From: Salipaludibacillus sp. LMS25
GTDB taxonomy: Bacteria > Bacillota > Bacilli > Bacillales > Salisediminibacteriaceae
Direction of reading: 5' to 3'
Length of the DNA stretch: 64,000 nucleotides
NCBI RefSeq assembly: GCF_024362805.1
Contig: NZ_CP093299.1
Location: 2,202,001-2,266,000 of the forward strand
Position 1 is the stretch's first letter. Each line of letters opens with the position of its first letter. The notes under the pieces are model-generated. The model ran no database searches. It was not told the DNA's origin and worked only from the letters and a program-made list of their open reading frames with translations. The position numbers were made by a program, and so were the translations under genes. Positions 39,382 to 55,171 of this stretch are shown here, in pieces.

Positions 39382-39409
39382 ACAGACCCTCTCCTTTTTC
39401 CGGGAGAAC

Positions 39410-39446
39410 AAAAAAACCTCCCAATTATGTTGGAAGGATTAGTCAT
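39410..39446 (-). terminator. Conditional terminator in the ABC-F leader
   Basis: CCTTCCAA and TTGGGAGG pair around CATAA, then a T-run on the minus strand. The sequence AGGATTAGTC at 39434-39446 can instead pair with GACTAATCCT at 39511-39520, giving an antiterminator that removes the 5' arm of the terminator. Confidence 0.85.
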
Positions 39447-39547
39447 GGATTACCGCACTTAAATAAGCTATTTAGCATGTGGCTAGATAGGTTACATGTA
39501 AAAATGGGCAGACTAATCCTACTTTTCATCAGCTGAAATAATGCCAT

Positions 39548-39589
39548 TCAACGTTTAAAAAGAGGCTTAGTTATCCATTGGCCACCCAT
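39548..39589 (-). CDS. Leader peptide MGGQWITKPLFKR
   Basis: ATG with GAAAGGA upstream, 13 codons, then TGA, between the promoter and the antiterminator arm. A ribosome slowed on it would favour antitermination. The layout equals that of vmlR-type regulation in B. subtilis. Confidence 0.75.
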   Translation of the reverse strand: MGGQWITKPLFKR

Positions 39590-39615
39590 CAGTCCTTTCG
39601 TGTTATGTTGCGATC

Positions 39616-40180: not shown

Positions 40181-40254
40181 ATTCATGACTTTCGTATGTT
40201 CCTTAGATTGCTTCTTTTACCTTATAATAGTAGGCATTGACTTTAACTGTAACG
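40181..40254 (+). promoter_or_regulatory. Shared promoter block, copy 1
   Basis: TCATGACTTTCGTATGTT, a T-rich spacer, then CCTTATAATAGTAGGCATTGACTTTA. Nearly the same block lies before b1 (44261) and b2 (45711). A -10 box (TATAAT) is clear, the -35 is poor, so the conserved upstream part may bind an activator. It drives the four-gene operon. Confidence 0.75.
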
Positions 40255-40288
40255 AAAATAGAGAGAATAACATAGGGGGTTAAGAGAT

Positions 40289-40630
40289 ATGATTTTAGGT
40301 GGAGTAGTTACGTTGGCATTAATTAAGAAAGGTGGATTAGATGGACCGGCAAAAATTAAAATAAGTGACGAACAGCTGACAGAGATGCTGTCAACGTATC
40401 AATCATTACATGACGAGGTACAGAGCATGCTAGCAGATTTTTTTCAACCGTTAGAAAGTTTAGAAGGTGAAGGAGCCTTTACCGGTGAGGCGGGACAGGC
40501 ATTTACCGAATATTGTACGTTATTAAGAAGCTATTTAGAGGCACGGTATGATTTATCTTTTGAAGAAATAAAATTAACGATTGAACAGTTTCATACAGCA
40601 TTAAGTGAAATTGATCAACTAGATATTTGA
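40289..40630 (+). CDS. Small helical protein, WXG100/LXG-partner-like
   Basis: 113 aa, helical. After a short N-terminal hydrophobic part (MILGGVVTLALIKKGG), two helices flank GEGAFTGEAGQAF (about residues 58-70), a turn like the W-x-G turn of WXG100 and LXG proteins. The C-terminal helix ends ALSEIDQLDI. It heads an operon of three small helical or coiled-coil proteins and one large protein, as in Bacillus LXG toxin loci. Its likely job is a chaperone or partner for type VII secretion. No homologue is firmly recognised. Confidence 0.6.
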   Translation: MILGGVVTLALIKKGGLDGPAKIKISDEQLTEMLSTYQSLHDEVQSMLADFFQPLESLEGEGAFTGEAGQAFTEYCTLLRSYLEARYDLSFEEIKLTIEQFHTALSEIDQLDI

Positions 40631-40639
40631 GGTGAGACG

Positions 40640-40975
40640 ATGTCTAAACAAATTAAAGTAAATGCAGAAGCCATAGAAGGTATAGTGGAAAAGGCGCGTC
40701 AAGTACCAGAGCAACGCATGGACGAAGCGATTGATAAGTTGAAGACCCTTTCGGAGACGTTAAGTACGTGGGAAGGGGAAGCCCCACAAGGTCATGCTGA
40801 GTTATACAAGGAAGTACACTTTGCATTAATTAAGACAAAAATGTTAATGTCCACGATCCTAAAGACACTTGATCAGTCCGTTGAGAGTTTAGCGGAACAA
40901 GATGACGAATTAGGTGAATCAATGAAGGGAAATGTCACGAGAGAAAACGTGATGGATAGTTTATTAGAAGAGTAA
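40640..40975 (+). CDS. WXG100-like protein (YwqI/DUF5344-type position)
   Basis: 111 aa, two long helices around STWEGEAPQGH (about residues 41-51), a W-x-G turn. It is 9 bp after the previous gene with GAGGTGAG before the ATG. WXG100-like proteins form dimers and are secreted or act as partners in type VII systems. Confidence 0.7.
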   Translation: MSKQIKVNAEAIEGIVEKARQVPEQRMDEAIDKLKTLSETLSTWEGEAPQGHAELYKEVHFALIKTKMLMSTILKTLDQSVESLAEQDDELGESMKGNVTRENVMDSLLEE

Positions 40976-41005
40976 TTTAATATTTTAATTAAAGGCAGTG
41001 ATGAG

Positions 41006-41521
41006 ATGGATAACAGTCGTTTAATAACAAGATACAAAGAACAAATGGCATCTAGTGAGGATACGATTACGTCTCTCGTTCGGAGCAATGCCACGTTACA
41101 ATCAAATTATGATGCGGCCACAAGCCGAATAAAAGAGTTAGAAAAAGAACTAGAAACAGTCCTATCCTACAGAAACGCAATGGATAAAGAATTGGCCGCA
41201 TTAGAAGAACTGACGGATGGAGCAGGTTCCCCAATGGGACGCATTAAGTTTTTGGAAACAGGTGTTCTAGAAAGTGGATTTTTAGCAAAAATGGAATCTC
41301 GTGTAGCTGAACGACGACAACGGCAAGCAGCCGCACTGGATAGTATAGCAGCAGCCATAGAACGTCTCGACAAAAAAGCCAGCGAGATTGAGGAAGAAAT
41401 TGAAAGAGAGCGAGCAAAAGCAGCCAACTATAGTCAAATGCTTTCTAGCAACAGTGGAAGAATAAATAATCTCAGATCAGAAATTAAAAGTAGTCGAAGT
41501 CGTTTAAGAGGATTAGTATAA
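41006..41521 (+). CDS. Coiled-coil protein (YwqH/DUF5082-like)
   Basis: 171 aa, nearly all coiled coil: residues about 15-70 and 95-165 with Glu/Lys/Arg heptads (IERLDKKASEIEEEIERE). YwqH-type coiled-coil proteins precede LXG toxins in Bacillus. The order here (WXG-like, coiled coil, large protein) agrees. Confidence 0.65.
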   Translation: MDNSRLITRYKEQMASSEDTITSLVRSNATLQSNYDAATSRIKELEKELETVLSYRNAMDKELAALEELTDGAGSPMGRIKFLETGVLESGFLAKMESRVAERRQRQAAALDSIAAAIERLDKKASEIEEEIERERAKAANYSQMLSSNSGRINNLRSEIKSSRSRLRGLV

Positions 41522-41535
41522 GAGAGGTGAGTCGT

Positions 41536-43002
41536 GTGGGGAATTATATCGCGGATCGGCAACAACTAAGTGATATGGTGGAAGAGCACCAGAGGGTCAT
41601 TAAAGTGTGGGATGAGCATGTTGAAGAATTAAATCAAATGCGAAATAATGTCAACAATTATATCTATAGGAAAGAAATGCAAAAAATTGAAAATGAGCTA
41701 GAAAAAGAGAGAGAAGAGAAAGAGAAAGTTCTTGAATTTTGGAATGGCATGGCCCAAGCAGATTACGATGCTAAAAGGAACTTTCAAACAGCGAGTGAAG
41801 GATTTATTACGATATTTTCAAAGCTTGATACACTAACTCGTGAAATTGGAAAGACGAATGGGAATTTAGAAAAGCTAAATGTTAATGAGATGCAGGATCT
41901 TATTTTTAAAGATAATCTTCTGGTAGAAATGCTATTAAAGAAAATGGGATACAATGGAGTTATGTCAGAAGCAGAAAGAGAATTCCTTTTTCAATATCTG
42001 CAAAATGATTTTCTAGACAATGAGATGTTAGAAGAAATTGAAGAAATTGTGGACCTTATCTTGACTGATGATGTGGAAGCTATAGAAGAAGGTTTAATGA
42101 ATATAATCAATAATAGAGTACTAAAATCAGATGAATCTTTAGAAATGGAAATGGCTAAAATTCAAGCATACTTATTTATGGGCAATTTAACTTCTCATGA
42201 ATTTGCCAAAAATGACCTGGAAGAAGAAGTTAATGAAATACTGCACTCATATTTAAAAATACTTGAAAATTGTAAAGCATTTGGTGACAGAATGAAGTAT
42301 GAAACTGGTTTAGAAGACTTAAATGAAATGAATATTAAAGTTGAAATTGATTATGAAAAATCGAGTATACCGGTTAGTCATATTTTTAAACAAAAAACCA
42401 GAATTTTAGGACCGCATATTGATGATTTTGATGAAACAACGGTGACTTACTACTCGCCTCCAGGAGCGGTTGGCAAAATTAAAATCCAGAATAATAAAGA
42501 ACTAAAAGAGAGTTTAGAGAATTTTACATTTAATCAAGGTGCTAATGAACTTTATAATAAAATTGTTGATGAAATGATAGGACTTACTGGTAAATTTGCA
42601 TTGCCAATAGAGACTGGTAGTTCTATAGTAAATATTTTAAGTGAAAAAGATGAAATTAAAAATACAATTAAAAATGAAGATGCTGAAATAGTTGCTGATC
42701 GGCTGAAGATGGCAGTCATTGTCTCCGAACAGGATTTTTTAGTAACGGAGGATGATCTTAAAATAGTGATGGTACCCACTATGGCTACTTTTGAACTAAT
42801 TGAACGTTGGGAGAAAGCTCATGAGCTTAATTCAGAAATCCCTTTTCCTAGTGAGCAAGTGAATAATCGTGATTGGTATGCAATCAGTGAGTTTTATATT
42901 AATGCTCAAAGTACTTTTAGTGACTATGATGGATTAGACCAATACATACATGATGATAGTATTAGATATCAATCCGTTGAGGAGATGGCCGAAGAGTGGT
43001 AA
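41536..43002 (+). CDS. Large type VII-effector-like protein ending in a b module
   Basis: 488 aa from the GTG at 41536, chosen because GAGAGGTGAG precedes it. Residues 1-90 are coiled coil (MQKIENELEKEREEKEKV). The middle is helical and acidic. Residues about 409-488 match the small b proteins downstream: KIVMVPT, ERWEKA, PSEQVNNRDWYA, and a tail DGLDQYI. No LXG signature is obvious at the N-terminus. The plan of N-terminal helical part plus exchangeable C-terminal module is that of polymorphic toxins. The module's activity is unknown. Confidence 0.65.
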   Translation: MGNYIADRQQLSDMVEEHQRVIKVWDEHVEELNQMRNNVNNYIYRKEMQKIENELEKEREEKEKVLEFWNGMAQADYDAKRNFQTASEGFITIFSKLDTLTREIGKTNGNLEKLNVNEMQDLIFKDNLLVEMLLKKMGYNGVMSEAEREFLFQYLQNDFLDNEMLEEIEEIVDLILTDDVEAIEEGLMNIINNRVLKSDESLEMEMAKIQAYLFMGNLTSHEFAKNDLEEEVNEILHSYLKILENCKAFGDRMKYETGLEDLNEMNIKVEIDYEKSSIPVSHIFKQKTRILGPHIDDFDETTVTYYSPPGAVGKIKIQNNKELKESLENFTFNQGANELYNKIVDEMIGLTGKFALPIETGSSIVNILSEKDEIKNTIKNEDAEIVADRLKMAVIVSEQDFLVTEDDLKIVMVPTMATFELIERWEKAHELNSEIPFPSEQVNNRDWYAISEFYINAQSTFSDYDGLDQYIHDDSIRYQSVEEMAEEW

Positions 43003-43508
43003 AAAAATAGATGCTGATGGAGTGGTATCAAATTTTGAAAAAAGACAAGCTGCTTCATCGTACCAAGAAAAGTCGAATTTTCTTTCTACGCTTTTTGAAA
43101 CAAGTGTTCAAGCAGCTAGGTCCTCCTTTATCTTCAGCTAAAGATCAGTCGCTGTGCTTTTTAGGACATGTGTATTTGAGCTCGTACTTACAGTCATAAT
43201 TATCATAACGATACGCAATTTCTTGAACAGAAGTAGGGACAAAGTAGGGATTCAATCCTTTGATCTCAGGATCCTTTCTCTTATTATAAGCAGTGATCGA
43301 TAAATTTGTTAATAAATCGCTAATCACCCCACATCAAATGTGCCAAAGCCAATCGGAAGCGCAAGCTTCTCGCTCAGTCTGCTCTTGTTGCGAAGAAAGC
43401 TACAATCTAATTGGAACATATAATTATTGTTGAGCCATTTAATCAAATCTTTTATCGTTGAAAAAACGTTCTCAATTCACTGGATAGGTTATAAATCTGA
43501 ATATCAAT
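43003..43508. other. Decayed stretch after the effector-like gene
   Basis: Short frames on both strands (for example 43145-43327 minus, LNPYFVPTSVQEIAYRYD) look protein-like but lack start signals. They may be remnants of inserted genes. No family is recognised. Confidence 0.3.
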
Positions 43509-43548
43509 AGACTTCCTTATCGTATAGTCGCCATAAGGGAGTCTTTTT
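43509..43548 (+). terminator. Intrinsic terminator
   Basis: AGACTTCCTTAT pairs with ATAAGGGAGTCT, then TTTTT. Confidence 0.8.
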
Positions 43549-43564
43549 CCAGTCCTTAGTTTTA

Positions 43565-44086
43565 TTGTACCCATCACTTGGTAAAAATATCATTAATATG
43601 ATGTTAGTAGACGATCAAGCCTATTTAGAAGAAAATGCCTTGGAATTACTAAATTATCCTGATTCATTCGAAAAGACCCTCCATGTAGAGTTCATTGAAG
43701 ATGATTATGCCCTCGTTTTTTATGAGTGGGGCCACATACTAAGTTATAATATGTTTGGTATGGCAGAAATGGAAAAGAATCTGTTCTCATGGGAATTAAT
43801 AACGGCCTATTCGGAATACAGGCCAGAAAATTATTCAATAGAGTGGCTGATAGTTGAGTTGGATGACTACACGGTCATGAGAGGGAGAATAGCTGATGAA
43901 GACATTGATAAAGTGATGCTAAACATGGCCGGAGAGGCGTATGAAGTAGATCATTTTGGAAATGGAAGTAACTACTGGTTTTACATAGGAGAGAAGGAAG
44001 ATTATACGGGAGCAAGCCTTCAAGGCATCTCTGTCTCAGGTGAGGTCATTGAAGAAATAGCGTTCAGTGAAGCAACAGTACAATAA
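43565..44086 (+). CDS. Family a protein, copy 1 (lacks its membrane segment)
   Basis: 173 aa. Shares with the other a proteins VEFIEDDYALVFYEWG (about residues 41-56), EMEKNLFSWELI, the region around YWFYIGEKEDYTGA and the end GEVIEEI. The N-terminal membrane segment of the other copies is missing and the start (TTG, or ATG near 43601) has no clear ribosome site, so the 5' end is probably lost. It follows the effector gene as each a follows a b, which would suit an immunity-type partner; that is inference. Confidence 0.6.
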   Translation: MYPSLGKNIINMMLVDDQAYLEENALELLNYPDSFEKTLHVEFIEDDYALVFYEWGHILSYNMFGMAEMEKNLFSWELITAYSEYRPENYSIEWLIVELDDYTVMRGRIADEDIDKVMLNMAGEAYEVDHFGNGSNYWFYIGEKEDYTGASLQGISVSGEVIEEIAFSEATVQ

Positions 44087-44149
44087 GGAAGGTAAAACGA
44101 TATCAGTAATTTTCTTATTATCTGCTCATGATTCGTTGAGTCTACTAGT

Positions 44150-44186
44150 GCTACGTTCAAAGCATGTTGAACGTAGCGATTTCTTT
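44150..44186 (+). terminator. Terminator after a1
   Basis: GCTACGTTCAA pairs with TTGAACGTAGC around GCATG, then GATTTCTTTT. Confidence 0.8.
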
Positions 44187-44260
44187 TGGCTTAAAACCGA
44201 TAGTCAATCTGTGTCTTTAGACCTGTCGCTCTCTCTGCATCCGGTTTGCTGTTCACCCAC

Positions 44261-44324
44261 ATCATGACTTTTGCCTGTTACGGCAACCGTTTTATTTCCT
44301 TATAATAGTAGGCATTGACTTTAT
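44261..44324 (+). promoter_or_regulatory. Shared promoter block, copy 2, split from its gene by element A
   Basis: TCATGACTTTTGCCTGTTAC, spacer, CCTTATAATAGTAGGCATTGACTTTAT. Element A copy 9 follows directly after TTTAT; in copy 3 the same block runs on uninterrupted. Confidence 0.78.
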
Positions 44325-44428
44325 CCCACTCTTAAGGGGCAGTAAAACCCCCACCTCAAACTTAAGAAGATCGAAAAGTTTAGGTGGGGGATGAAGGAAA
44401 ACTCCCACTGATTGAAGCTTAGCTTTAT
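44325..44428 (+). repeat. Hairpin element A, copy 9 (internally deleted, 104 bp)
   Basis: It has both ends but lacks about 50 central bases. The loss runs from one GTGGGGGAT to the other, so it arose by recombination between these short repeats. It lies in the 5' leader of b1. Confidence 0.9.
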
Positions 44429-44487
44429 AGGTGAGTGAACGTATTCAAGCATATTGAGTTAAATTGAAAAAAGAAAAAGGTGAAAAA

Positions 44488-44937
44488 ATGAAAAAATGGA
44501 AGAATGTATTGATTTCGACAATCATGGTGATATCAGCTTTCTTAATCATTCATCATACAGCTAGCCAGGACGTGGTGGAAAATGAAGAGTTACTAGAATA
44601 CTGGGGGGTAGCGAATACGAACTCATTAGGGACTTATTTTACGAGTACGGACCCTATCGAAGTAGCATTTTTTCCGACTGAATTTACAGAAATGGCCATG
44701 GAGAGGTGGGAAATTATTGCGGATATTTATGAGGAAGTGACGTATCCGGAGGAAGCTATCAATAATAATGATTGGCTAGAAGCGGATGCGATTCTGCAAG
44801 ATGCTTTAGATGACATGAGAATGGCAGGCAAAGACGACGATACGGGAGTCATTATCGCGTTTATTTATTCTGGTGGTGTAACAGGAAACTTAAGACAAAA
44901 GTTTAATAGGGCAGGAATTGAGTATGAGTATGAGTAA
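44488..44937 (+). CDS. Family b protein, copy 1
   Basis: About 149 aa. One N-terminal membrane segment (NVLISTIMVISAFLIIHH), then the b domain: IEVAFFPTEF, ERWEIIADIYEEVTYPEEA, NNNDWLEADA and a tail GVIIAFIYSGG. I chose ATG 44488 because AAAGGTG precedes it. Predicted anchored outside the membrane. It pairs with a2, 50 bp downstream. Family not recognised. Confidence 0.72.
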   Translation: MKKWKNVLISTIMVISAFLIIHHTASQDVVENEELLEYWGVANTNSLGTYFTSTDPIEVAFFPTEFTEMAMERWEIIADIYEEVTYPEEAINNNDWLEADAILQDALDDMRMAGKDDDTGVIIAFIYSGGVTGNLRQKFNRAGIEYEYE

Positions 44938-44987
44938 GCAAGTACGACCATCTGTGAATCATGATAATCGTAAGGCGGGATAGGATA

Positions 44988-45560
44988 ATGTCAAAAAAAC
45001 TAAAAATATCACTCATTATAGGTGGTGTGGCGTTACTTCTATTTGTCAGTTGGTTCTTCTTTTTGAAAGATGACTATAAACAAATAGAAAACGAGGTTTA
45101 TTCGTTAAATCAAGTGATGACACAAATAGCTCATATCGAAATGATAGAAGATGATTATGCGTTAGCTATTTATGTGTGGGGAAAGAATCAGCATGCAGGT
45201 ATCATAGAATTTGAAAGAACGCTGTTTGGCTGGAAGATGACGAGTGGAGTAAGCGAATTGTTATATGGCGGTCTACAATTTGTTGAATTAGAAAACTTTT
45301 CTGTAATTCATTACTCAGATCGCCCCAATATAGAAGAAGTGCGCGTCCAGTTGAGAAATGGTCATACACACCCGGCGTTATTAAAAGAAGGAAATGGGAC
45401 GGGTGAAGGGTTTTATGCAATCAACCCTGACCGTTGGTATTACTATTCCGACACAGAGGATTTAGCAGGGGCCACTGTCACCACATACAATAAGGACGGG
45501 CAAGTAGTGGAAGAAATGCAGATTCCTGATGATCCAAGTGGAGGGACAGTTGCACAGTAG
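44988..45560 (+). CDS. Family a protein, copy 2
   Basis: About 190 aa. N-terminal membrane segment (KISLIIGGVALLLFVSWFFF), then DDYKQIENEVYSLNQ, IEMIEDDYALAIYVWG, EFERTLFGWKM, WYYYSDTEDLAGATV and a Gly/Glu-rich end. The extracytoplasmic part is beta-rich. ATG 44988 has GATAGGA before it. A terminator follows at 45608. Confidence 0.72.
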   Translation: MSKKLKISLIIGGVALLLFVSWFFFLKDDYKQIENEVYSLNQVMTQIAHIEMIEDDYALAIYVWGKNQHAGIIEFERTLFGWKMTSGVSELLYGGLQFVELENFSVIHYSDRPNIEEVRVQLRNGHTHPALLKEGNGTGEGFYAINPDRWYYYSDTEDLAGATVTTYNKDGQVVEEMQIPDDPSGGTVAQ

Positions 45561-45607
45561 AAGAACGATGGTGAACGCTATAAATAGTTATTGATTTATA
45601 GGTAGAG

Positions 45608-45637
45608 CTACATTGGATCTTCTCCAATGTAGTTTTT
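45608..45637 (+). terminator. Terminator after a2
   Basis: CTACATTGGA pairs with TCCAATGTAG around TCTTC, then TTTTTT. Confidence 0.92.
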
Positions 45638-45710
45638 TGAGGTTTTTTCAGATCGGTAACAGAGTCTTTAGAACTATCCTTCTCGTCTTATCTTCCTTCC
45701 ATCTTACCCA

Positions 45711-45777
45711 TATCATGACTTTTGTCTGTTACCACGGTCCTTTCTTTTCCTTATAATAGTAGGCATTGACTTTATAA
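45711..45777 (+). promoter_or_regulatory. Shared promoter block, copy 3
   Basis: TCATGACTTTTGTCTGTTAC, spacer, CCTTATAATAGTAGGCATTGACTTTAT. It is the uninterrupted counterpart of copy 2 and drives b2-a3 and perhaps the following genes, since no terminator is seen up to a5. Confidence 0.78.
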
Positions 45778-45856
45778 TGTGAGAGAACGAAAGAATGGAC
45801 GAGCGCTTTGCGATACATACGTTGTTTAACAGTCATAAGTGAGGGGGATAAATGGC

Positions 45857-46378
45857 TTGACTAAATTAATGAGACAATTAAACACGTGTTTAAAGAATAT
45901 CTGGGTCAGGATCACATTGGGGATTATTTTAATATTAGCAGGATTAACGTATTTAGAAGTCTACTTAGATAATAAAGAACCAAAGGACGCTGAAAATATG
46001 AAGATTCTAAATGTTTATAATACAGCGGTCACCAATTTTTATCTTGATGTGGCTTATTACAGCAATGAACCACCAATGGATGTGGCGTTTGTAAAAACTG
46101 GCTACACGGATGAGGTTCTAGAAAGGTGGCAGTTAGTGGCGCGCTATTATGCTGATATCAACTATATGGCTTATCCAGAAGAAGTTGTTCAAGAAAATGA
46201 CTGGTTCGCAGTAAATGAGTTTTTCACAGATAGTTTAGTAGAACTTCGCTATTTATATCATGGTGATGATGAATTTAAAGCATCTACTCCAAATCCTGAT
46301 GCTGTTGAGAAATTTATTCTAACAGGTAATCGCGATAATATAAACGAAGACTATCATTCCGAAATGGGAATAGAGTGA
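45857..46378 (+). CDS. Family b protein, copy 2
   Basis: About 173 aa. Membrane segment ITLGIILILAGLTYLEVYL, then MDVAFVKTGYTDEVLERWQL, YPEEVVQENDWFAVNEFF and NPDAVEKFILTGN. I favour TTG 45857 after GAGGGGG; an ATG at 45869 is possible. It is 15 bp before a3. Confidence 0.7.
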   Translation: MTKLMRQLNTCLKNIWVRITLGIILILAGLTYLEVYLDNKEPKDAENMKILNVYNTAVTNFYLDVAYYSNEPPMDVAFVKTGYTDEVLERWQLVARYYADINYMAYPEEVVQENDWFAVNEFFTDSLVELRYLYHGDDEFKASTPNPDAVEKFILTGNRDNINEDYHSEMGIE

Positions 46379-46393
46379 TAGAGAGGGAAGTGT

Positions 46394-46954
46394 ATGTCTA
46401 AAATAAAGCTTATAAGTGGCGTATTTTTAATAGTAAGTGTGATCATAGGCTTTATCGTCACGATAAAGTTAATGCTAGCTGATGATTTAACACAAATTGA
46501 AGAACAAGTCAATTCACTTAACCAGGGACCTTATATCCTGCATACTGAATTTATTGAAAATGATCATGCCATCGTTTTTTATCAATGGGGCACTATTCTT
46601 CACCATAGAAAACTGGCTTTTATGGAACTTGAGAAAACGCAATTTACGTGGGAGTTTAAAAGTGCCCATGCCACTCATATATCACGTGAAGATAGGCTAG
46701 AAGCCCAATTGACAGAATTAGGTGATAAGTCTGTCTTGAGAGGTCGAGTGGACAACGCCGATATAGAGGACATTACCATTTTATCTACAAGCGGTCATAC
46801 CTATTCTGGAACACTAATAGAGGATGACAATGGGAGAAAGTACTGGTTCTTCATCGGCGAAGATGATGATTTCACTGAGGCTACGATTACTGGTTTGTCA
46901 AAATCAGGTGAAGTGATTGAAGAAATTACAGCGGTTAAAAGTATATATCGGTAG
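46394..46954 (+). CDS. Family a protein, copy 3
   Basis: 186 aa. Membrane segment (VFLIVSVIIGFIVTIKLML), DDLTQIEEQVNSLNQG, TEFIENDHAIVFYQWG, ELEKTQFTWEFKSA, YWFFIGEDDDFTEATI and SGEVIEEI. AGAGGGAAG precedes the ATG. It shows the family pattern most fully. Confidence 0.72.
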   Translation: MSKIKLISGVFLIVSVIIGFIVTIKLMLADDLTQIEEQVNSLNQGPYILHTEFIENDHAIVFYQWGTILHHRKLAFMELEKTQFTWEFKSAHATHISREDRLEAQLTELGDKSVLRGRVDNADIEDITILSTSGHTYSGTLIEDDNGRKYWFFIGEDDDFTEATITGLSKSGEVIEEITAVKSIYR

Positions 46955-46969
46955 GTCCTTAAAAAAGGT

Positions 46970-47228
46970 GTAGATATTCAAGCGGATCTCTGAGGTTTTC
47001 CCCGAAAAGACATATCCTGAAGAAGCGATTGAACAAAATGATTGGTTAGTAGTTAGTAGAGAATTTGCGATCGGTGCAGAGGAATTAGAGAAGGTTTATG
47101 GAGAAGATATGGGATTAAGCAAAAATATGGTATGGTCATATATTCTTTGGAATGAAGAAAGTTCGAAACTTCAAGGATATATCAACCAAACATCTGATAA
47201 TAAAGCCTATAAAGAGAAGGAGGTGTGA
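46970..47228 (+). pseudogene. Family b remnant, copy 3 (N-terminal part lost)
   Basis: The frame reads RISEVFPEKTYPEEAIEQND, then the WLVV and SREFA region and GLSKNMVWSYILWNEES, ending at TGA 47226-47228. The membrane segment and the first part of the b domain are missing and an in-frame stop lies upstream. Its end overlaps the ribosome site of a4, so position and order b-a are kept. Confidence 0.75.
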
Positions 47229-47230
47229 CT

Positions 47231-47800
47231 TTGAAAAAGCGACTAGTTACTGCCATGATCATAGGTTTTATCATGTTATTAGGATATGCTGTTTTCTTTT
47301 TCATTACGCTAAAAGATGATGAAGAACAAATTAGAGATGAAGTACGCTCTGCTTATGGGGAGATAAACATAGTCGGGATTAAAATATCAGATGATGAATC
47401 GTCTGCAATTGTGATTTTTGAAAGAGGTTTTGACCACCTTGGTGCCATGACGCTATCAAAGTCATGGTTTGAGTGGGACATGCAGGAATCATCGAGCGAA
47501 CGTTTACCCAGTCCAATGAGTGACGGGGTATTTTATAGAGAGTACGATGAGTACACAGTGTTGGCAGGGAAAGTAGGGTGGAATACGTCTGACATAAAGG
47601 TAGACATTGGTGAAGAACGTGAGGAGCTTTCAGCTACCATTACAGAATTAATAAATTTAAGTGGGTCCTTTTGGTATCTAATAACTGAAAATGATGATCT
47701 ATCTGATGCCGTTGTGAAAGTATATGATGAGGAAGGTAACGTGATTGCAGAAATGGATGAAGACGTATTTAATGGCGCTCGCGTAGACCTTAATAACTAA
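47231..47800 (+). CDS. Family a protein, copy 4 (divergent)
   Basis: About 189 aa. Membrane segment (MIIGFIMLLGYAVFFFITL), then DDEEQIRDEVRSAYG, a weaker core (DESSAIVIFERGFD, SKSWFEWDM) and FWYLITENDDLSDAVVKVYD. TTG 47231 follows AGGAGGTG. Confidence 0.68.
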   Translation: MKKRLVTAMIIGFIMLLGYAVFFFITLKDDEEQIRDEVRSAYGEINIVGIKISDDESSAIVIFERGFDHLGAMTLSKSWFEWDMQESSSERLPSPMSDGVFYREYDEYTVLAGKVGWNTSDIKVDIGEEREELSATITELINLSGSFWYLITENDDLSDAVVKVYDEEGNVIAEMDEDVFNGARVDLNN

Positions 47801-47955
47801 TATCATACCTTTTAAGCAAGTAGTTTAATGTATCTGAATTCAGTGTTTACTAGGCCAACAAATAGTTGAGAACAAAACTAATCCTCTTTGAACAGAGAGG
47901 GTTAATGTTGCTGTTATTAATGACTTCACAATTTAATGGAGGGAGGGCATCCACA

Positions 47956-48441
47956 GTGAGGGATAGAAGCAAAGAGATAACACACACGTTTTTGCTATGT
48001 GGGAGCGTTATGATAATCATGTTCATGATTTTCGTAGCTATCCAACATCACAGACATATAAAGCAAGAGAATGACTATTTTCACGAACTGGTTTTTCTAG
48101 CGAAGGATTTCCAATTAAATATCCACTATCAAACAGAAAAGCCCGAATCTGACCACCTTGCTCCTACTCGGTTAACAGAAGAGCTGCTTTCGAGGTGGGA
48201 GAGCGTTGCAGCCGCATTTGAAGATATTAGTTATCCTCCAGCAGAAGCAGTGGAAAGAAACGACTGGGTGGAAGTAGAGCGAGCATGGATAGAGACACTT
48301 ATTGCTTATGAGGAAATATATGAAGCATCGGATAAAGTGGATTTAATACACCCGAGATCTATTAAAAACTACATATTCTCTAATAACTTAAGTGATAGGG
48401 ATAATTTGAAAGATCATTTAAAGGAAGAAAGTCATGAGTAA
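47956..48441 (+). CDS. Family b protein, copy 4
   Basis: About 161 aa. Membrane segment FLLCGSVMIIMFMIFVAI, then LAPTRLTEELLSRWESVAAA, YPPAEAVERNDWVEVERAW and HPRSIKNYIFSNN. I chose GTG 47956 because GGAGGGAGGG lies just upstream; the frame is open to 47866 without a ribosome site. Confidence 0.7.
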   Translation: MRDRSKEITHTFLLCGSVMIIMFMIFVAIQHHRHIKQENDYFHELVFLAKDFQLNIHYQTEKPESDHLAPTRLTEELLSRWESVAAAFEDISYPPAEAVERNDWVEVERAWIETLIAYEEIYEASDKVDLIHPRSIKNYIFSNNLSDRDNLKDHLKEESHE

Positions 48442-48488
48442 AAGGGGAAGAGAGTCAGGGGTTCTTCCTGAGGAAAGTAAGAGGTGAC

Positions 48489-49049
48489 ATGATGTTGGAT
48501 TCAAAAGCTAAATATTTTGTCTTTGTAGCGTTAGGCCTTACTTTAATGGTAGTCACTTACTTTATAATGATGAGTGCAATAAACGCTGAGCAGCAAATTA
48601 AAGACAAAGTTATTGATTTAGAACCTCTGAATATCGATGTTTTGCATGTTGAGTTGGTGGAAAAAGACTATGCTATAGCTTTTTATGAGAGGGTCTCCTT
48701 CGAGGCAGTAGGGGTAGTAGAATTGGAGAAAACACTATTTGGATGGAAGGTCATAAGTGTAGAAAAAATAAGATCTGGTGTTTTGGAAGGAAGAACAGCT
48801 GTCCATTATTCACAGCTAGCAAAAAGGACCATTCTAAAAGGAGATATGTATACTGATTTTGATGATGTTCTAGTGAAAACAGCTGATGGTAGGACATATG
48901 AAACAACGATTACTGAAAAACAAGAAGGACTTAACATATGGTTTTTAATAGTAGAGGATGAAGATTTTTCTGGGGCTACCGTAGAAGTTTACGGAGGAGA
49001 CGGAGAAACGATTGAAAAGGTATCAGTTAGTAGTAAGCCCGAACTATAG
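48489..49049 (+). CDS. Family a protein, copy 5
   Basis: 186 aa. Membrane segment (YFVFVALGLTLMVVTYFIMM), AEQQIKDKVIDLE, VELVEKDYAIAFYERV, ELEKTLFGWKVIS, IWFLIVEDEDFSGATVEVYG. AAGAGGTGAC precedes the ATG. It is the last intact member. Confidence 0.7.
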   Translation: MMLDSKAKYFVFVALGLTLMVVTYFIMMSAINAEQQIKDKVIDLEPLNIDVLHVELVEKDYAIAFYERVSFEAVGVVELEKTLFGWKVISVEKIRSGVLEGRTAVHYSQLAKRTILKGDMYTDFDDVLVKTADGRTYETTITEKQEGLNIWFLIVEDEDFSGATVEVYGGDGETIEKVSVSSKPEL

Positions 49050-49128
49050 TATAACCACGTTCCATATAAAGGCAGGCTAAAGAACTGTGTAAAAAAGTAA
49101 CGGGTTTAAGTATAGGAGGGGACTAACA

Positions 49129-49465
49129 GTGAAAATTAAAAACATTAATTGGTTATCACAAGAGGCGTTAGAAGCTGAAGTAGAGGTTACCGATGGGAAA
49201 TTTGAAATTAATTGTTTTGCACAACCATTAAATTATCAAATAGGTAGTAAATACAGATGTTATCAAGTGTAAGAAAAAGAAGTGATCTCTATTGAGAAGC
49301 TAGAAGAATAGTTTGCTTATAGTTTGTCGGGGAAATTAGTTGATAAAAAACTTGAAACAGTAATGGTCGGTAAACTATTCTGGAGTTAGATGGCATTTTA
49401 TTACCATTATATGTAACTAAAGGAGATTTTATATCTCTTAGTTGTCAAAGGTTAGACATTATTTA
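49129..49465 (+). pseudogene. Immunity-like protein remnant
   Basis: GTG with TAGGAGGGGAC upstream opens a frame KIKNINWLSQEALEAEVEV that meets TAA after 47 codons, a second stop later, and then a frame change before DGILLPLYVTKGDF. The intact form resembles small immunity-type proteins found beside Bacillus polymorphic toxins. Dead by three defects. Confidence 0.6.
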
Positions 49466-49529
49466 GAAAAAGAGATTTAAAATAAATGTTTTAGAAAAAT
49501 TGAGGGCTTATCAAGAAAAGAGTGGTAGT

Positions 49530-49987
49530 ATGGAACAAGTTTTTGAAGATAAATTTAGTGAGTTGCAAGCAGATATGGTGTCTATTTGTTTAGAGTATGT
49601 TGAAGATAGGGCAGAGAAGATATATATACATTGTTCCTTAGAAAAAAACTAGTTTCATCTCGTTTTTTCTATTGTATAAATGGCAAACTTGTTGAGAGGC
49701 ATAAATTAAATGATGCTCTTGATAGTACGGATGATTTCCAATATGATACATCAGGAGAAAGGCAAAGCGGTGTATTAAATATAATAAATGACAACATTGT
49801 GGAAATGCTTAAATTGAGTGAGGACTATAATAGAGAAATGCCTACCGAGATAAAGTTAATTTATAATGTAGCCTAAAATAGTTTAAAAGCAGATTACAGG
49901 TATGATATGGTGTATTCTAATTATCCTGATAAATCGCCTGATGATGTCTCAATGGAGTGGTTTGAGGAAATAAAATCATATATGTAA
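49530..49987 (+). pseudogene. YezG-family (DUF600-like) immunity protein, frameshifted
   Basis: MEQVFEDKFSELQADMVSIC starts the frame, which breaks at about 49650. The next part (FFYCINGKLVERHKLNDALD) is in a second frame, stops once (TAA at 49874), and goes on to MEWFEEIKSYM. YezG-type proteins neutralise the LXG toxin YeeF in B. subtilis. It supports an earlier, complete toxin locus here. Confidence 0.65.
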
Positions 49988-50280
49988 AATAAACCTCGAT
50001 TGCTGGGTGAAGCCTTTCGAAGTTTATTTTGTTACAGAATAGGGCGATAATAGATCCTTTTTGAGGGTAGTAAAGTAAGTATGTTATTTGGAATGTGACT
50101 TCAATTTATCCCACTCTTAAGGGGCAGTATAACCCCCACCTCAAAACTTAAGATCGAAAAGTTTAGGTGGGGGATAAACGGCCCCTAAAGGTCCCATAAG
50201 TTAAACGAACAATCAGTGGGGGAAGAAGGAAAACTCCCACTGATTGAAGCTTAGCTTTATAATGGTAGTAAAAAAACACC
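49986..50280 (+). repeat. Duplicated segment, copy 1 (partner at 52712-53018)
   Basis: CGATTGCTGGGTGAAGCC, AGGGCGATAATAGATCC, element A and AATGGTAGTAAAAAAA occur in the same order in both places, with scattered differences. The pair flanks the toxin remnant and rap-phr, and could recombine to delete them. Confidence 0.88.
50110..50260 (+). repeat. Hairpin element A, copy 10
   Basis: Full-length copy after TTTAT, inside the duplicated segment. Confidence 0.93.
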
Positions 50281-50340
50281 ATAAACCTTAGTTGATTTTA
50301 AGGATATGGGTTATATTGGTACAATTGTCGTTAATCCGAG

Positions 50341-50628
50341 ATGGAGTTATTAGATGAGTTAGCTAAGAGTGGTGTAAATTATAATCATGAAGTGATAGCT
50401 GGTAGAAAATTAGATAATGGAAAGTTAGTTTGGCTTGAAAAACTAATGATGGATTATATAATGTAATGCGTCATGTGGATGATTTTTCTGCCAAGGGGAT
50501 TTGATCCGATGAGATAGCTGACTTGATCATGGAGGCACTTAGTAATGGAAAGGGTGTTGGGTGCGATAGGCATGATATACCTCATAGAATCAGTATGATG
50601 GTACGCATAATGTGTCCGTACATCATGC
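50341..50628 (+). pseudogene. Polymorphic-toxin C-terminal remnant
   Basis: MELLDELAKSGVNYNHE, GKLVWLE, then after deletions VDDFSAKGI, a stop, and SDEIADLIMEALSNGKGVG. The series resembles the last domain of LXG-type nuclease toxins in Bacillus (HxxDFxxxGI, then LIMEALSNGKxVG). Several stops and losses make it inactive. Confidence 0.55.
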
Positions 50629-50772
50629 CACATTAGATACGTCATTTCATGACGTCTGTTGTTCATATAGTATATGTATCTGAGTATCTGATATCAAAAA
50701 GAAAACCCATACCGTGTGTTACGGTACGGGCGGGTCTAGCGATTTTAGTGCTTGTTCGATATACGCGCTTTT

Positions 50773-50910
50773 TTATCCTAAAAATCCGTTTTCGGCTGTT
50801 TGGAAATCATCTAAACCAAGTGTTTTATTTTCATTTGTGTTGAGATGATTCCCTGATAAGAGAAGTAATCCAAAAATAGCAGCGGTAATTAAGACTGTTC
50901 GTTTTTTCAT
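50773..50910 (-). CDS. Phr-type signalling peptide precursor
   Basis: 45 aa. A basic start and hydrophobic export signal (MKKRTVLITAAIFGLLLLSG) precede a short polar tail (ENKTLGLDDFQTAENGFLG) from which a penta- or hexapeptide would be cut. The ATG overlaps the rap stop (ATGA), the classical rap-phr layout. The reimported peptide would inhibit the Rap protein. The exact mature peptide cannot be fixed. Confidence 0.8.
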   Translation of the reverse strand: MKKRTVLITAAIFGLLLLSGNHLNTNENKTLGLDDFQTAENGFLG

Positions 50911-52019
50911 GATAACGCCTCCGTAAATTTTAATATTTGGTCTTTTGCTGTGCAAGCTTCCTCAAAATATTTAGATGACAGATCAGTGTTCTCCTGCTTT
51001 TTGTAATACAGAGCGGCATTTAGAGATAGATCAGCGACATCCGACCACAAATGTTGCTCTTTGAGTATATTCATATTCTCGTCAAAAGATGCCGAATTAG
51101 TTTCATCGTATAGAAAGTATATGAGGTTCAGTTTGGTCTTATATACATGTTCGTTTACACTTTCAGCATATGTTATGGCTTTATTTCTCCATTCACGAGC
51201 TATTTCATGTGATCCTAACTTGTAAAGAGTGCGACTTAACATATAGTAATTCCTAATCGTTAAACAATTTAAATCGCTTAACGTGAACGAGAGGGTTTTC
51301 TCAAAGCATTCCAAGGCTTCCAGAAGTTTTTCCTGTCTCTCATAACATATCCCTAAATTGAAATACCCTAAGCTTTCGGAATAGCCTTCTTTGTTTTCGG
51401 AAGCGATTTGTATGGCACGCTTGTATAGAGAGATGGCTTCATCCCATAGCTGAAGGTCAACCTTATTCATGGCGAAAATCATGTGACATTTGATTACGCG
51501 GTTGATGTAGCCTTCATGCGCTTTAAAACTTTCGAGTGCTCTTTCAGCATGATTTAAAGAGAAAAAGTTCTGGCGGATTTCATAATAGGTAATGGCAGTT
51601 TGATAGTGGAATTCAGCTCTTTCTATTTCGTCCGGTACTTTGTTGAGTTTGCTCTCTGCGACTCTGTAGGAGCTGATCGCTTTAATGAAGTCTTTTTCAT
51701 AGAAGCGATACATGCCGTTGAAAAGATAAAAATAATACTGGATCATATCGTCTGTGGTTGTCTCCAGCGTTTCGTATTTCACTTTGCCAAGAAGATTTCC
51801 TGATTCACTATAATTTTCAGTCATCAATTTAAAGCGAGAGTCTATGAGATTGAAATATAGAAGCACGTTCTGATTTTTTTCCATGTCTGGTAGTGCCTTA
51901 ATGATTTTTTCTCGCATGGCTGTAGCTTTGGGAATATTGTTTTGTTTGATGACCCTATACCACTCGTTAAGGTCGAAAGCCACTTTTTCAAAATCTATTT
52001 TTGTTTCCACCTTCGCCAT
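50907..52019 (-). CDS. Rap-family TPR regulator
   Basis: 370 aa. The N-terminal three-helix part (about residues 1-70, with LNEWYRVIKQNNIPKA) and about seven TPR repeats (for example GYFNLGICYERQEKLLEALE near 223-242) make up a Rap protein. Rap proteins dephosphorylate Spo0F or block response regulators such as ComA. The ATG touches the ribosome site (AAGGAAGG); a GTG three codons later (52010) has better spacing. Coupled to phr downstream. The target is unknown. Confidence 0.87.
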   Translation of the reverse strand: MAKVETKIDFEKVAFDLNEWYRVIKQNNIPKATAMREKIIKALPDMEKNQNVLLYFNLIDSRFKLMTENYSESGNLLGKVKYETLETTTDDMIQYYFYLFNGMYRFYEKDFIKAISSYRVAESKLNKVPDEIERAEFHYQTAITYYEIRQNFFSLNHAERALESFKAHEGYINRVIKCHMIFAMNKVDLQLWDEAISLYKRAIQIASENKEGYSESLGYFNLGICYERQEKLLEALECFEKTLSFTLSDLNCLTIRNYYMLSRTLYKLGSHEIAREWRNKAITYAESVNEHVYKTKLNLIYFLYDETNSASFDENMNILKEQHLWSDVADLSLNAALYYKKQENTDLSSKYFEEACTAKDQILKFTEALS

Positions 52020-53362: not shown

Positions 53363-55171
53363 GTCGCACTCTCTATGAGTGCGTGGATTGAAATACCAGA
53401 CACTTTAACAAAGTGGCGATCTCCACCGTCGCACTCTCTATGAGTGCGTGGATTGAAATTTCAATTCTTTTGTCGTGTCATACTTATCCTCGACGTCGCA
53501 CTCTCTATGAGTGCGTGGATTGAAATTTTAAATTGTCTTTGATAACTACGTACTGCTTGGGTCGCACTCTCTATGAGTGCGTGGATTGAAATAAGCTCTT
53601 TGACACCAAAGGCAAGGTTTCCCCAGTCGCACTCTCTATGAGTGCGTGGATTGAAATGGATCTCTTTCAAAGAGACAGTCACGGTGTTCAGTCGCACTCT
53701 CTATGAGTGCGTGGATTGAAATCTTGCTTGGCTAGAAACGATGGGACCAGAATCTGCGTCGCACTCTCTATGAGTGCGTGGATTGAAATCCTTTATCATT
53801 TGACGTTATTGATTTAGCAATCCCGTCGCACTCTCTATGAGTGCGTGGATTGAAATTTTCCTAAGCTCGTTATAGGTGTTGCCTAACGTGGGTCGCACTC
53901 TCTATGAGTGCGTGGATTGAAATATCGTGCTGGCTGTGTCTCGGCTTGCGACTATGTAGTCGCACTCTCTATGAGTGCGTGGATTGAAATAGGATAGGTC
54001 TGCTTTACTTAGATTTTATGGACGTCGCACTCTCTATGAGTGCGTGGATTGAAATTCCTACCTATCTGCGGTGGAGGAAGTGTCGCAAGTCGCACTCTCT
54101 ATGAGTGCGTGGATTGAAATTCGCCTTTTATACGACCATCTTAACGACACTTAACGTCGCACTCTCTATGAGTGCGTGGATTGAAATTTTGTGACTTCGA
54201 CTTCATCGTTAACTCGTAATTGTCGCACTCTCTATGAGTGCGTGGATTGAAATCTCTTGGCGATGAGGGGCGGCAGCAATCTCTGCGTCGCACTCTCTAT
54301 GAGTGCGTGGATTGAAATATCATATGAGAAGGAAATAAGTAAAAAAGATACGTCGCACTCTCTATGAGTGCGTGGATTGAAATGCGAACTAGCCCTCCGT
54401 CCATAAAGTCCTCGGCAAGCGTCGCACTCTCTATGAGTGCGTGGATTGAAATAGTTCCTACAACCACAGGGATATCACTTGTTTTGGTCGCACTCTCTAT
54501 GAGTGCGTGGATTGAAATTACAAATTTACGATCAAGACCAAAACGAGGATGAGTCGCACTCTCTATGAGTGCGTGGATTGAAATTAGAGAATGGACATCA
54601 TTGTAAGATAGTAGATTGGGTCGCACTCTCTATGAGTGCGTGGATTGAAATTGTAAGGTTCAACTCCTGACCACTTATTGGCGATTGTCGCACTCTCTAT
54701 GAGTGCGTGGATTGAAATTTAAATCGACAGTTACACCGTAATGCTTCTCGATGTCGCACTCTCTATGAGTGCGTGGATTGAAATCAATCATGCCCCATAT
54801 AATACTAAAAGCAATTGTTGTCGCACTCTCTATGAGTGCGTGGATTGAAATGCACAATGTTATTAAGGTATTTGCATCGACCCGTGGTCGCACTCTCTAT
54901 GAGTGCGTGGATTGAAATCGTTCCGAGAAAGAAAAAATGGTTTCGTTAGTCAGTCGCACTCTCTATGAGTGCGTGGATTGAAATTTCTATTTTTTCTGGT
55001 GTTAGATAGCCGCCATGTGTCGCACTCTCTATGAGTGCGTGGATTGAAATGCTTCCCCAGTGCCTTCTGTTGCTCTTGTGTAAGTGTCGCACTCTCTATG
55101 AGTGCGTGGATTGAAATGTGAGCAACGCAAAAACAGCATTTGTCTCTTAGGTCGCACTCTCTATGAGTGCG
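53363..55171 (+). CRISPR. CRISPR array 2, type I-C, 27 spacers
   Basis: 27 intact repeats of 32 nt (beginning GTCGCACTCTCTATGAGTGC) start at 53363, 53428, 53495, 53561, 53626, 53691, 53758, 53825, 53892, 53959, 54024, 54089, 54156, 54222, 54287, 54352, 54421, 54487, 54553, 54620, 54687, 54753, 54820, 54887, 54953, 55019 and 55086. A last repeat (55151-55171) is cut after 21 bases. All repeats are identical by eye. Spacers are 33-37 nt. The cut end joins an IS3 fragment, so the far end of the array was lost by insertion or deletion. cas3 lies 5.5 kb downstream. Confidence 0.98.

Follow-up and report, generated by a model that had tools for sequence, protein, structure and literature searches.

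The 64,000-nucleotide stretch of Salipaludibacillus sp. LMS25 analyzed here (contig NZ_CP093299.1, positions 2,202,001 to 2,266,000 of the forward strand; hereafter the window) carries a four-gene operon, g1 to g4, followed by an array of genes from two families, b and a. We found that the C-terminal tail of the large protein g4 is related to the b proteins encoded behind it, and we suggest, with a probability of about 0.7, that the locus encodes a polymorphic antibacterial effector of the type VII secretion system (T7SSb) together with an array of membrane-anchored immunity proteins built by effector displacement. The sequence evidence behind the suggestion comprises homology and synteny, the pairing of genes, the switching of modules, effector remnants, matches of orphan pairs, a shared promoter-like element and linkage to T7SS genes; secretion, toxicity, protection by b and a, and binding between tail and b are what we infer from them.

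A plain BLAST search of g4 against the whole genome matched b1 (E 2.2e-4), and a profile built from 26 b proteins and no effector detected the C-terminus of g4 in the whole genome at E 1.5e-12, as well as the C-termini of two relative effectors (E 8e-14 and 3e-12). The residues R, W, P and W were invariant across an alignment of 7 effectors and 20 b proteins. The b pattern at the end of the large protein, first pointed out in an earlier note made from the letters of this stretch, is thus borne out, and by these measures the likeness of the g4 end to b exceeds what chance would give. In a phylogenetic tree, 7 tails formed one clade versus 46 b proteins (support 99/98), and in a larger tree, with few columns, many weak forks and b proteins shorter than 120 aa left out, 17 tails, one of them a remnant, formed one clade apart from 59 b proteins (SH-aLRT 99.7). 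Because the tails form one clade apart from b, they were not recently derived from free b genes. The idea that the free b genes serve as spares of the effector end, with a as their partner, is therefore not upheld, as tails and free b proteins are separate clades and the free b genes have a membrane anchor of their own. The effector tail and the candidate immunity protein b appear instead to be paralogues, a relationship that seems to be new.

The operon lies on the plus strand, behind the promoter-like element CTTATAATAGTAGGCATTGACTTTA (40221–40245), and begins with two WXG100-like small partners, g1 (40289–40630; Pfam WXG100 E 7.3e-6, just under the cut-off) and g2 (40640–40975; E 3.5e-6, just over it), so that small helical partners, both at E < 1e-5, are present upstream of the effector. 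The start ATG of g1 aligns with the ATG of the relative G007. They are followed by g3 (41006–41521), a coiled-coil partner of 171 aa with 85% identity to its counterpart in G007 and 36–68% in three other loci, and by g4 (41527–43002), the candidate T7SS effector. These positions and this order agree with the four-gene operon of the earlier note, except that g4 has 491 aa and not 488; g4 has no Pfam LXG domain. In a predicted model of g4 (mean pLDDT 76.8, pTM 0.66), a long N-terminal helical hairpin and further helices up to residue 268 are followed by three strands (270–309), more helices and then the b-like tail (42703–42999, residues about 393–491). The tail is predicted as a two-strand hairpin with helices, with pLDDT block means of 82–93 over residues 411–480, 65 at 401–410 and about 75 at the end. 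Region 246–392 is the most divergent part of the effectors, with a mean identity of 18–22% as compared with 30–38% in its flanks.

Relatives were sought by profile surveys of overlapping genome sets (35 genomes of the window's family, 397 of the order, 41 of a second family and 398 of the class). A b profile with one tail row was positive in 4 of the 35 genomes, and an effector profile in 4 of the 397, with b in the same 4. The effector profile was positive in 8 of the 41 genomes of the second family, one of which, G441, gave only a b, and the class sample returned an effector or b in one genome, the window's own. These surveys gave a total of 11 effector genomes with 16 effectors, 12 of a short form and 4 of an LXG form, all 16 of which carry the tail. 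Family a is accessory; it is far more widely distributed (39/397 genomes with a hit at E 1e-4, versus 4/397 for the effector) and often solitary, so that the occurrence of b and a elsewhere with no link to type VII loci, which the earlier note had named as evidence against its proposal, was seen for a but, two kinds of site aside, not for b. These sites, where b occurs without an effector, are one locus of G441 and a syntenic solo b–a locus that three members of the window's genus have in common. At the G441 locus (L157, 7229–8528), the solo b gene has a YezG-like immunity gene (E 5e-37) as its neighbor, an arrangement reminiscent of a mixed antitoxin island, and we count this neighborhood in favor of an immunity function. 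The solo b–a locus of the genus (L011, 7452–9217, and L046 and L047) has the same surroundings in the three genomes, is adjoined on one side by a large exported-looking protein, and keeps a decayed promoter-like element; its other neighbor is presumably a SIR2-type gene.

The gene next to the effector is b in 10 of the 12 short-form loci, within 36 nt or overlapping, a count in which G439 and G440 are near-identical and the exceptions are G436 and the window. In G007, the effector is followed by 24 b–a pairs in strict alternation over about 34 kb; the G001 locus holds 8 b and 10 a pieces, and G022 has two loci with the order effector-b-a, one of them with a second b–a pair. The same order occurs in G200, where the effector is shortened and its targeting part absent. 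G250 (effector-b-b) and G417 (effector-b) have no a at the locus. In G433, G439 and G440, the effector is followed by b, a lipoprotein-like gene and then more b genes. In G436, a lipoprotein-like gene comes directly after the effector, and a remnant of an effector tail stands between it and the b genes; the lipobox in these four genomes was judged by eye. The notion of a as the partner of the module did not survive this comparison, as a is absent at the G250 and G417 loci and replaced by the lipoprotein-like gene in another genus. As for the proposed b–a pairing, b and the following a do travel together, but the usual neighbor of the effector is b and not a.

The link to type VII secretion that the earlier note had drawn from the operon is strengthened by the distribution of EssC, scanned in 29 genomes with the curated cut-off of TIGR03928. 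EssC was above the cut-off in 10 of the 11 effector genomes; the exception, G200, has an effector devoid of the targeting part. Within the window's genus, EssC passed in 3 of 8 genomes, exactly the three with b and effector (b profile); among genomes of other genera without an effector, it passed in 7 of 13, including G441 with its solo b, and the gene of G438 is broken. In G433, G436, G439 and G440, the effector operon is preceded by EssC at a distance of less than 5 kb, and in G436, the one scanned, EsaA (E 2e-50) and EssA (E 1e-5, under the cut-off) lie between EssC and the effector.

The effectors combine a constant N-terminus with a switching C-terminal module. The short-form effectors of G433 and G436 are 92–97% identical per 40 aa to about residue 160 and 32–54% thereafter, and their LXG forms are 90–100% identical to about residue 200 and 17–40% thereafter, placing the breakpoints near residues 160 and 200, respectively. 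The LXG forms, proteins of 603–609 aa from four genomes, share the C-terminal module and tail of the short forms but start with a different N-terminus; the earlier note had proposed looking for b tails on more than one kind of LXG-like protein, and such tails are thus found. In the one LXG form scanned (G433, 603 aa), this N-terminus is a true LXG domain (PF04740, E 5.3e-54), and the first 200 aa are common to all four (87–100% per 40 aa in five comparisons). Because the module occurs also behind a true LXG domain, it is carried, b-like tail included, by two different T7SS targeting parts. A YwqH-like partner lies upstream of one LXG form. Genes of families b and a adjoining the LXG forms were looked for at the four LXG-form loci and not found; 2 of the 3 following genes scanned match DUF6612 (E 6e-13 and 1e-6). 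Tandem lipoprotein-like paralogues stand behind LXG-form effectors with a b-like tail at L149 (9395–12744), L151 (10037–12279), L152 and L155. These DUF6612 or lipoprotein-like paralogues are perhaps another immunity family for the same module.

The tail is also exchangeable, as had been proposed. Between the effectors of G433 and G439, dS was 0.05–0.28 in the body, 0.92 in the tail and 1.4 in the adjacent b; since dS is low in the near-identical bodies and high in tail and b, the tail and the adjacent b were probably replaced together from another lineage. The distance between cognate b proteins followed the distance between tails among the 10 effectors with an adjacent b (Spearman 0.65, 0 of 5000 permutations as high), as compared with 0.35 (p 0.046) for region 246–392 and no correlation for region 126–245 (rho 0.16, p 0.23). 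When G439 and G440 were left out, the corresponding values were 0.64, 0.19 and −0.10. These comparisons suggest that b likely recognizes the effector via its b-like tail.

The arrays retain several traces of their history. Identities of b and a across strains run in parallel (93/95, 74/75, 66/71 and 43/42%), and over 42 pairs, with pairs whose a has 150 aa or less dropped, rho was 0.44 (0 of 2000 shuffles as high). Within G007, each b correlated with the a of its own pair (rho 0.52; 2000 shuffles gave at most 0.29), as compared with 0.18 between each a and the next b. For four of the 10 b genes that adjoin an effector, another array holds a twin with more than 90% identity: the b1–a1 pair of G001 corresponds to pair 12 of G007 (94/98%), the effectors of these genomes being 26% identical, G433_b1 to G436_b4 (99%), and G439_b1, identical in G440, to G436_b5 (97%). 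Such orphan matches, together with module switching, agree with the polymorphic-toxin-like locus with downstream immunity-type genes that the earlier note had suggested. Effector 3' remnants precede b2, b3 and b13 in gaps of the G007 array (E 4e-10, 1e-7 and 4e-5); the controls gave 2 matches on the reverse strand and 1–2 in each of three shuffles, none below E 0.17. One effector remnant also precedes a b in G436. The remnant between a2 and b3 of G007 best matches the effector of G022B, and the b3–a3 pair that follows it best matches b1–a1 of the same locus.

A search of the entire genome (4.5 Mb) for the element CTTATAATAGTAGGCATTGACTTTA, which is promoter-like in sequence and a candidate promoter, gave 3 exact copies; they precede g1, b1 (44299–44323, plus strand) and b2 (45750–45774, plus strand), and no copy was found elsewhere in the genome at up to 3 mismatches (reversed control 0). 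Twenty stretches were scanned in full for the element at up to 5 mismatches, with no match in the other-strand and reversed controls. It lies before the operon and 9 of the 24 pairs of G007 and before the operon and 2 of the 8 b genes of G001. In G022B it precedes the operon (4 mismatches), and three genomes have it upstream of the first b at their solo loci (4–5 mismatches). The remaining 13 stretches (G022A, G250, G200, G417, G441 and two loci each of G433, G436, G439 and G440) gave no match. Upstream of b3 in G007, the order is promoter-like element, effector remnant, b3. Construction of the array by effector displacement, a known kind of process, is the best reading of these sequence traces.

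In the window itself, the genes 3' of g4, all on the plus strand, are ordered a1, b1-a2, b2-a3, broken b3, a4 and b4-a5; the b proteins belong to one family and the a proteins to another, and b1, b2, b4 and a2 to a5 are intact. At the site where most relatives have the cognate b, a 562-nt gap (43003–43564) separates g4 from a1, and a search of this gap for a b signal found none. The gene a1 (43565–44086) is N-terminally truncated and is probably what remains of the cognate a; its product is 73% identical to G007_a18 and 65% to G007_a1, and the alignment begins at residue 29 of G007_a18, so that the transmembrane start is lost. The five b–a pairs previously proposed, with the first b fused to the effector, are not what the relatives suggest, as these normally have a separate b between the effector and the first a, and it is this b that the window lacks. 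The membrane-anchored candidate immunity protein b1 (44488–44937) is 74% identical to G007_b9, whose partner a is 75% identical to a2 (44988–45560), the membrane-anchored partner of b1; b2 (45869–46378) is 93% identical to G007_b6 (partner a, 95%), and b4 (47956–48441) is 94% and 93% identical to G001_b5 and G007_b5 (partner a, 95% and 91%). The b3 remnant (46983–47228; b profile E 1.7e-13) has lost its 5' part. The genes a3 (46394–46954), a4 (47231–47800) and a5 (48489–49049) are, like a2, members of family a. With its cognate b lost and a1 cut, the window effector may be inactive or may be covered by another pair, and the window copy of the system may therefore be decaying.

Two copies of an element of roughly 110–160 nt, CCCACTCTTAAGGGGCAG...AACTCCCACTGATTGAAGCTTAGCTTTATA, which resembles a transposon end, lie in the window at 44315–44429, directly behind the promoter-like element of b1, and at 50100–50261. 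The stretch 49050–50628 holds decayed open reading frames (ORFs), and those 3' of a5 (49130–50640) look like scraps of other genes; a Pfam scan of five pieces yielded a single match, which was no better than chance.

Hydropathy and charge indicated a strong hydrophobic segment in all 46 b proteins and in 42 of the 45 a proteins, two a fragments of 120 aa or less having been left out. The segment begins within the first 45 residues in 46 b and 43 a proteins, and the charge suggests that the remainder lies outside the cell in 45 b and 43 a. None of the b and a proteins tested had a second hydrophobic segment above 1.6 on the KD scale behind the first, and they are not polytopic. No 19-residue window above 1.2 KD was found in the 7 effectors tested, and a strict GxxxGxxxG motif was present in 4 of the 16 effectors and absent from the window's, so that a glycine zipper is not conserved.

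On the reading that we prefer, g1 to g3 would act as small partners in bringing g4 to the EssC machine, and g4 would consist of a helical T7SS-targeting part (about 1–160), a connecting part with the hypervariable region 246–392, and the b-like tail (393–491). A free b, held by one N-terminal membrane anchor with its domain outside the cell, would protect against an effector arriving at the outer face of the membrane, usually paired with a second anchored partner, which would be a here and the lipoprotein-like protein in another genus; the precedent of ExiC and ExiD suggests that a may be the second subunit of an immunity pair. Binding of b to the effector would take place at the b-like tail, tail and b being descended from one ancestral domain. 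A new module of effector and b, with or without a, would enter behind the constant 5' genes and displace the old effector, and the old pair would move downstream, in some cases with its operon-type promoter-like element, to be retained as orphan immunity against strains still using the old effector. Possibly, though we hold this only tentatively, the effector terminates in a copy of the outside domain of the immunity protein, the anchored immunity protein neutralizes the effector like-with-like, by replacing or capping its tail, and specificity evolves along that interface.

Several observations weigh against this reading. A conserved catalytic residue set was sought in the module and none stands out, no match in Pfam, NCBIfam, PADLOC or PDB sequence searches gives a function, and there is no part with known toxic activity; in the PDB search, b had one weak match (E 0.011, a cell-division-control protein) and a none below 0.2. 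The Pfam scan of g4 did not find LXG (PF04740), only WXG100 at E 0.05. The window effector lacks an intact adjacent b, and b is not always the neighbor elsewhere, as a lipoprotein-like gene follows the G436 effector and other genes follow the LXG-form effectors. Five of the 10 effector-adjacent b genes (G022A, G022B, G250, G200 and G417) have no twin of at least 60% in the array of another genome, and the twin of G007_b1 is at 66%. G007 and G022 were found via the b/tail profile, which biases the count of 16 tails in 16 effectors toward tailed effectors. The correlation between tail and b comes from 10 pairs, two of them identical, with no correction for phylogeny, and could arise from linkage, neighbors being replaced in one recombination event. 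At the solo b–a site of the genus, no T7SS gene is obvious nearby, as judged from the gene list.

The position of the most divergent region admits a different reading, in which the tail is a self-inhibitory or chaperone domain: within the producer it would cover residues 246–392, the region to which free b proteins would bind in trans outside the cell. The low identity of that region would fit, as would the a2–b3 remnant of G007, which spans 246–392 and whose type matches the pair that follows. We regard this as unlikely, as the cognate b follows the tail far better (rho 0.65) than it follows 246–392 (0.35, and 0.19 without near-duplicates). The homology of tail and b, the co-inheritance of b and a as pairs with both domains probably outside, and the high polymorphism of the arrays could also mean that b is not an immunity protein at all and that the tail mimics b in order to dock on the target's a or a–b membrane complex, the array being a set of polymorphic self-recognition receptors. 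This is quite improbable in our judgment: G250 and G417 have an effector and b with no a at the locus, G250 lying outside the 39 genomes with an a hit; a lipoprotein-like gene substitutes for a in another genus; and orphan matches and displaced effector ends are typical of immunity arrays. Least probable of all, we believe, is that the proteins are not toxins but a T7SS-exported surface adhesion or signaling system of alkaliphilic bacilli. The lack of a toxin signature and of a conserved catalytic residue set is compatible with it, but the loci show module switching after a constant N-terminus, a module placed behind a canonical LXG domain, remnants of effectors and orphan pairs, all of them hallmarks of polymorphic toxins.

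The effector with its immunity array resembles several known systems. With the LXG polymorphic toxins of T7SSb it shares WXG-type partners upstream, a constant N-terminus with a switching C-terminus, an adjoining candidate immunity gene and, in relatives, a module behind a true LXG domain; unlike them, the window effector has no Pfam LXG domain, no toxin family described in the libraries searched matched its module, and the last domain of the module is a relative of the candidate immunity protein. The Streptococcus immunity protein TipC of the TelC/TipC system has one N-terminal membrane segment and an outside domain (PMC6193138), as b does by hydropathy and charge. TipC occurs as several tandem paralogues, up to 15 copies, and binding was found only for the paralogue next to the toxin (PMC6193138, PMC9484751); TipC is not described there as being related to a domain of TelC (PMC6193138), and in the window's system the genes alternate in b–a pairs, up to 24. 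Tandem polymorphic immunity genes are also described for TspA/TsaI and EsaD/EsaG of Staphylococcus, where a tspA 3' fragment between tsaI genes (PMC9484751) parallels the effector remnants seen here; TsaI has five predicted transmembrane segments (PMC9484751), as compared with one in b and a. Two membrane proteins, ExiC and ExiD, are both needed against the extracellular toxin EsxX, and orphan copies occur in strains without the toxin (PMC12744356). ExiC and ExiD are described as polytopic and b and a are single-segment, and the glycine zipper of EsxX is not conserved in the effectors here. EsaG, to our knowledge, has no membrane anchor. The displacement model proposed here is the one described for the type VI secretion system of Vibrio cholerae, where an incoming effector-immunity module takes the place of the old effector, whose immunity gene is retained but shifted further back (PMC5361080); that system differs in being of type VI and in having single immunity genes, not pairs, and homology between effector end and immunity protein is not mentioned in its description, so far as this covers the point (PMC5361080).

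Around the locus, on the minus strand, a Rap-type protein (RapH_N E 8e-20, TPR repeats) is followed by a small secreted-looking ORF (50773–52019), possibly a Rap-Phr quorum-sensing pair. An ORF with repeated ISIHALIESAT (53461–53697, minus strand), which looks like translated CRISPR repeats, has a similar counterpart (ISIHALMKSAT) at L053 (6641–6976). The small RNA family ncr1575 of Rfam matches at 39409–39611 on the minus strand (112.8 bits, gathering 60).

To the known T7SS loci, this locus and its relatives add a long series of immunity pairs in which past displacements of effectors can still be read, as well as an effector module that is portable, since it occurs after either of two T7SS targeting parts. 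They also offer natural sets of toxin tails with matching and non-matching immunity proteins. If the like-with-like reading is true, up to 24 immunity pairs would be stored in one array, and if the immunity protein and the toxin end share one ancestor, this would represent one route by which immunity proteins for new toxins arise.

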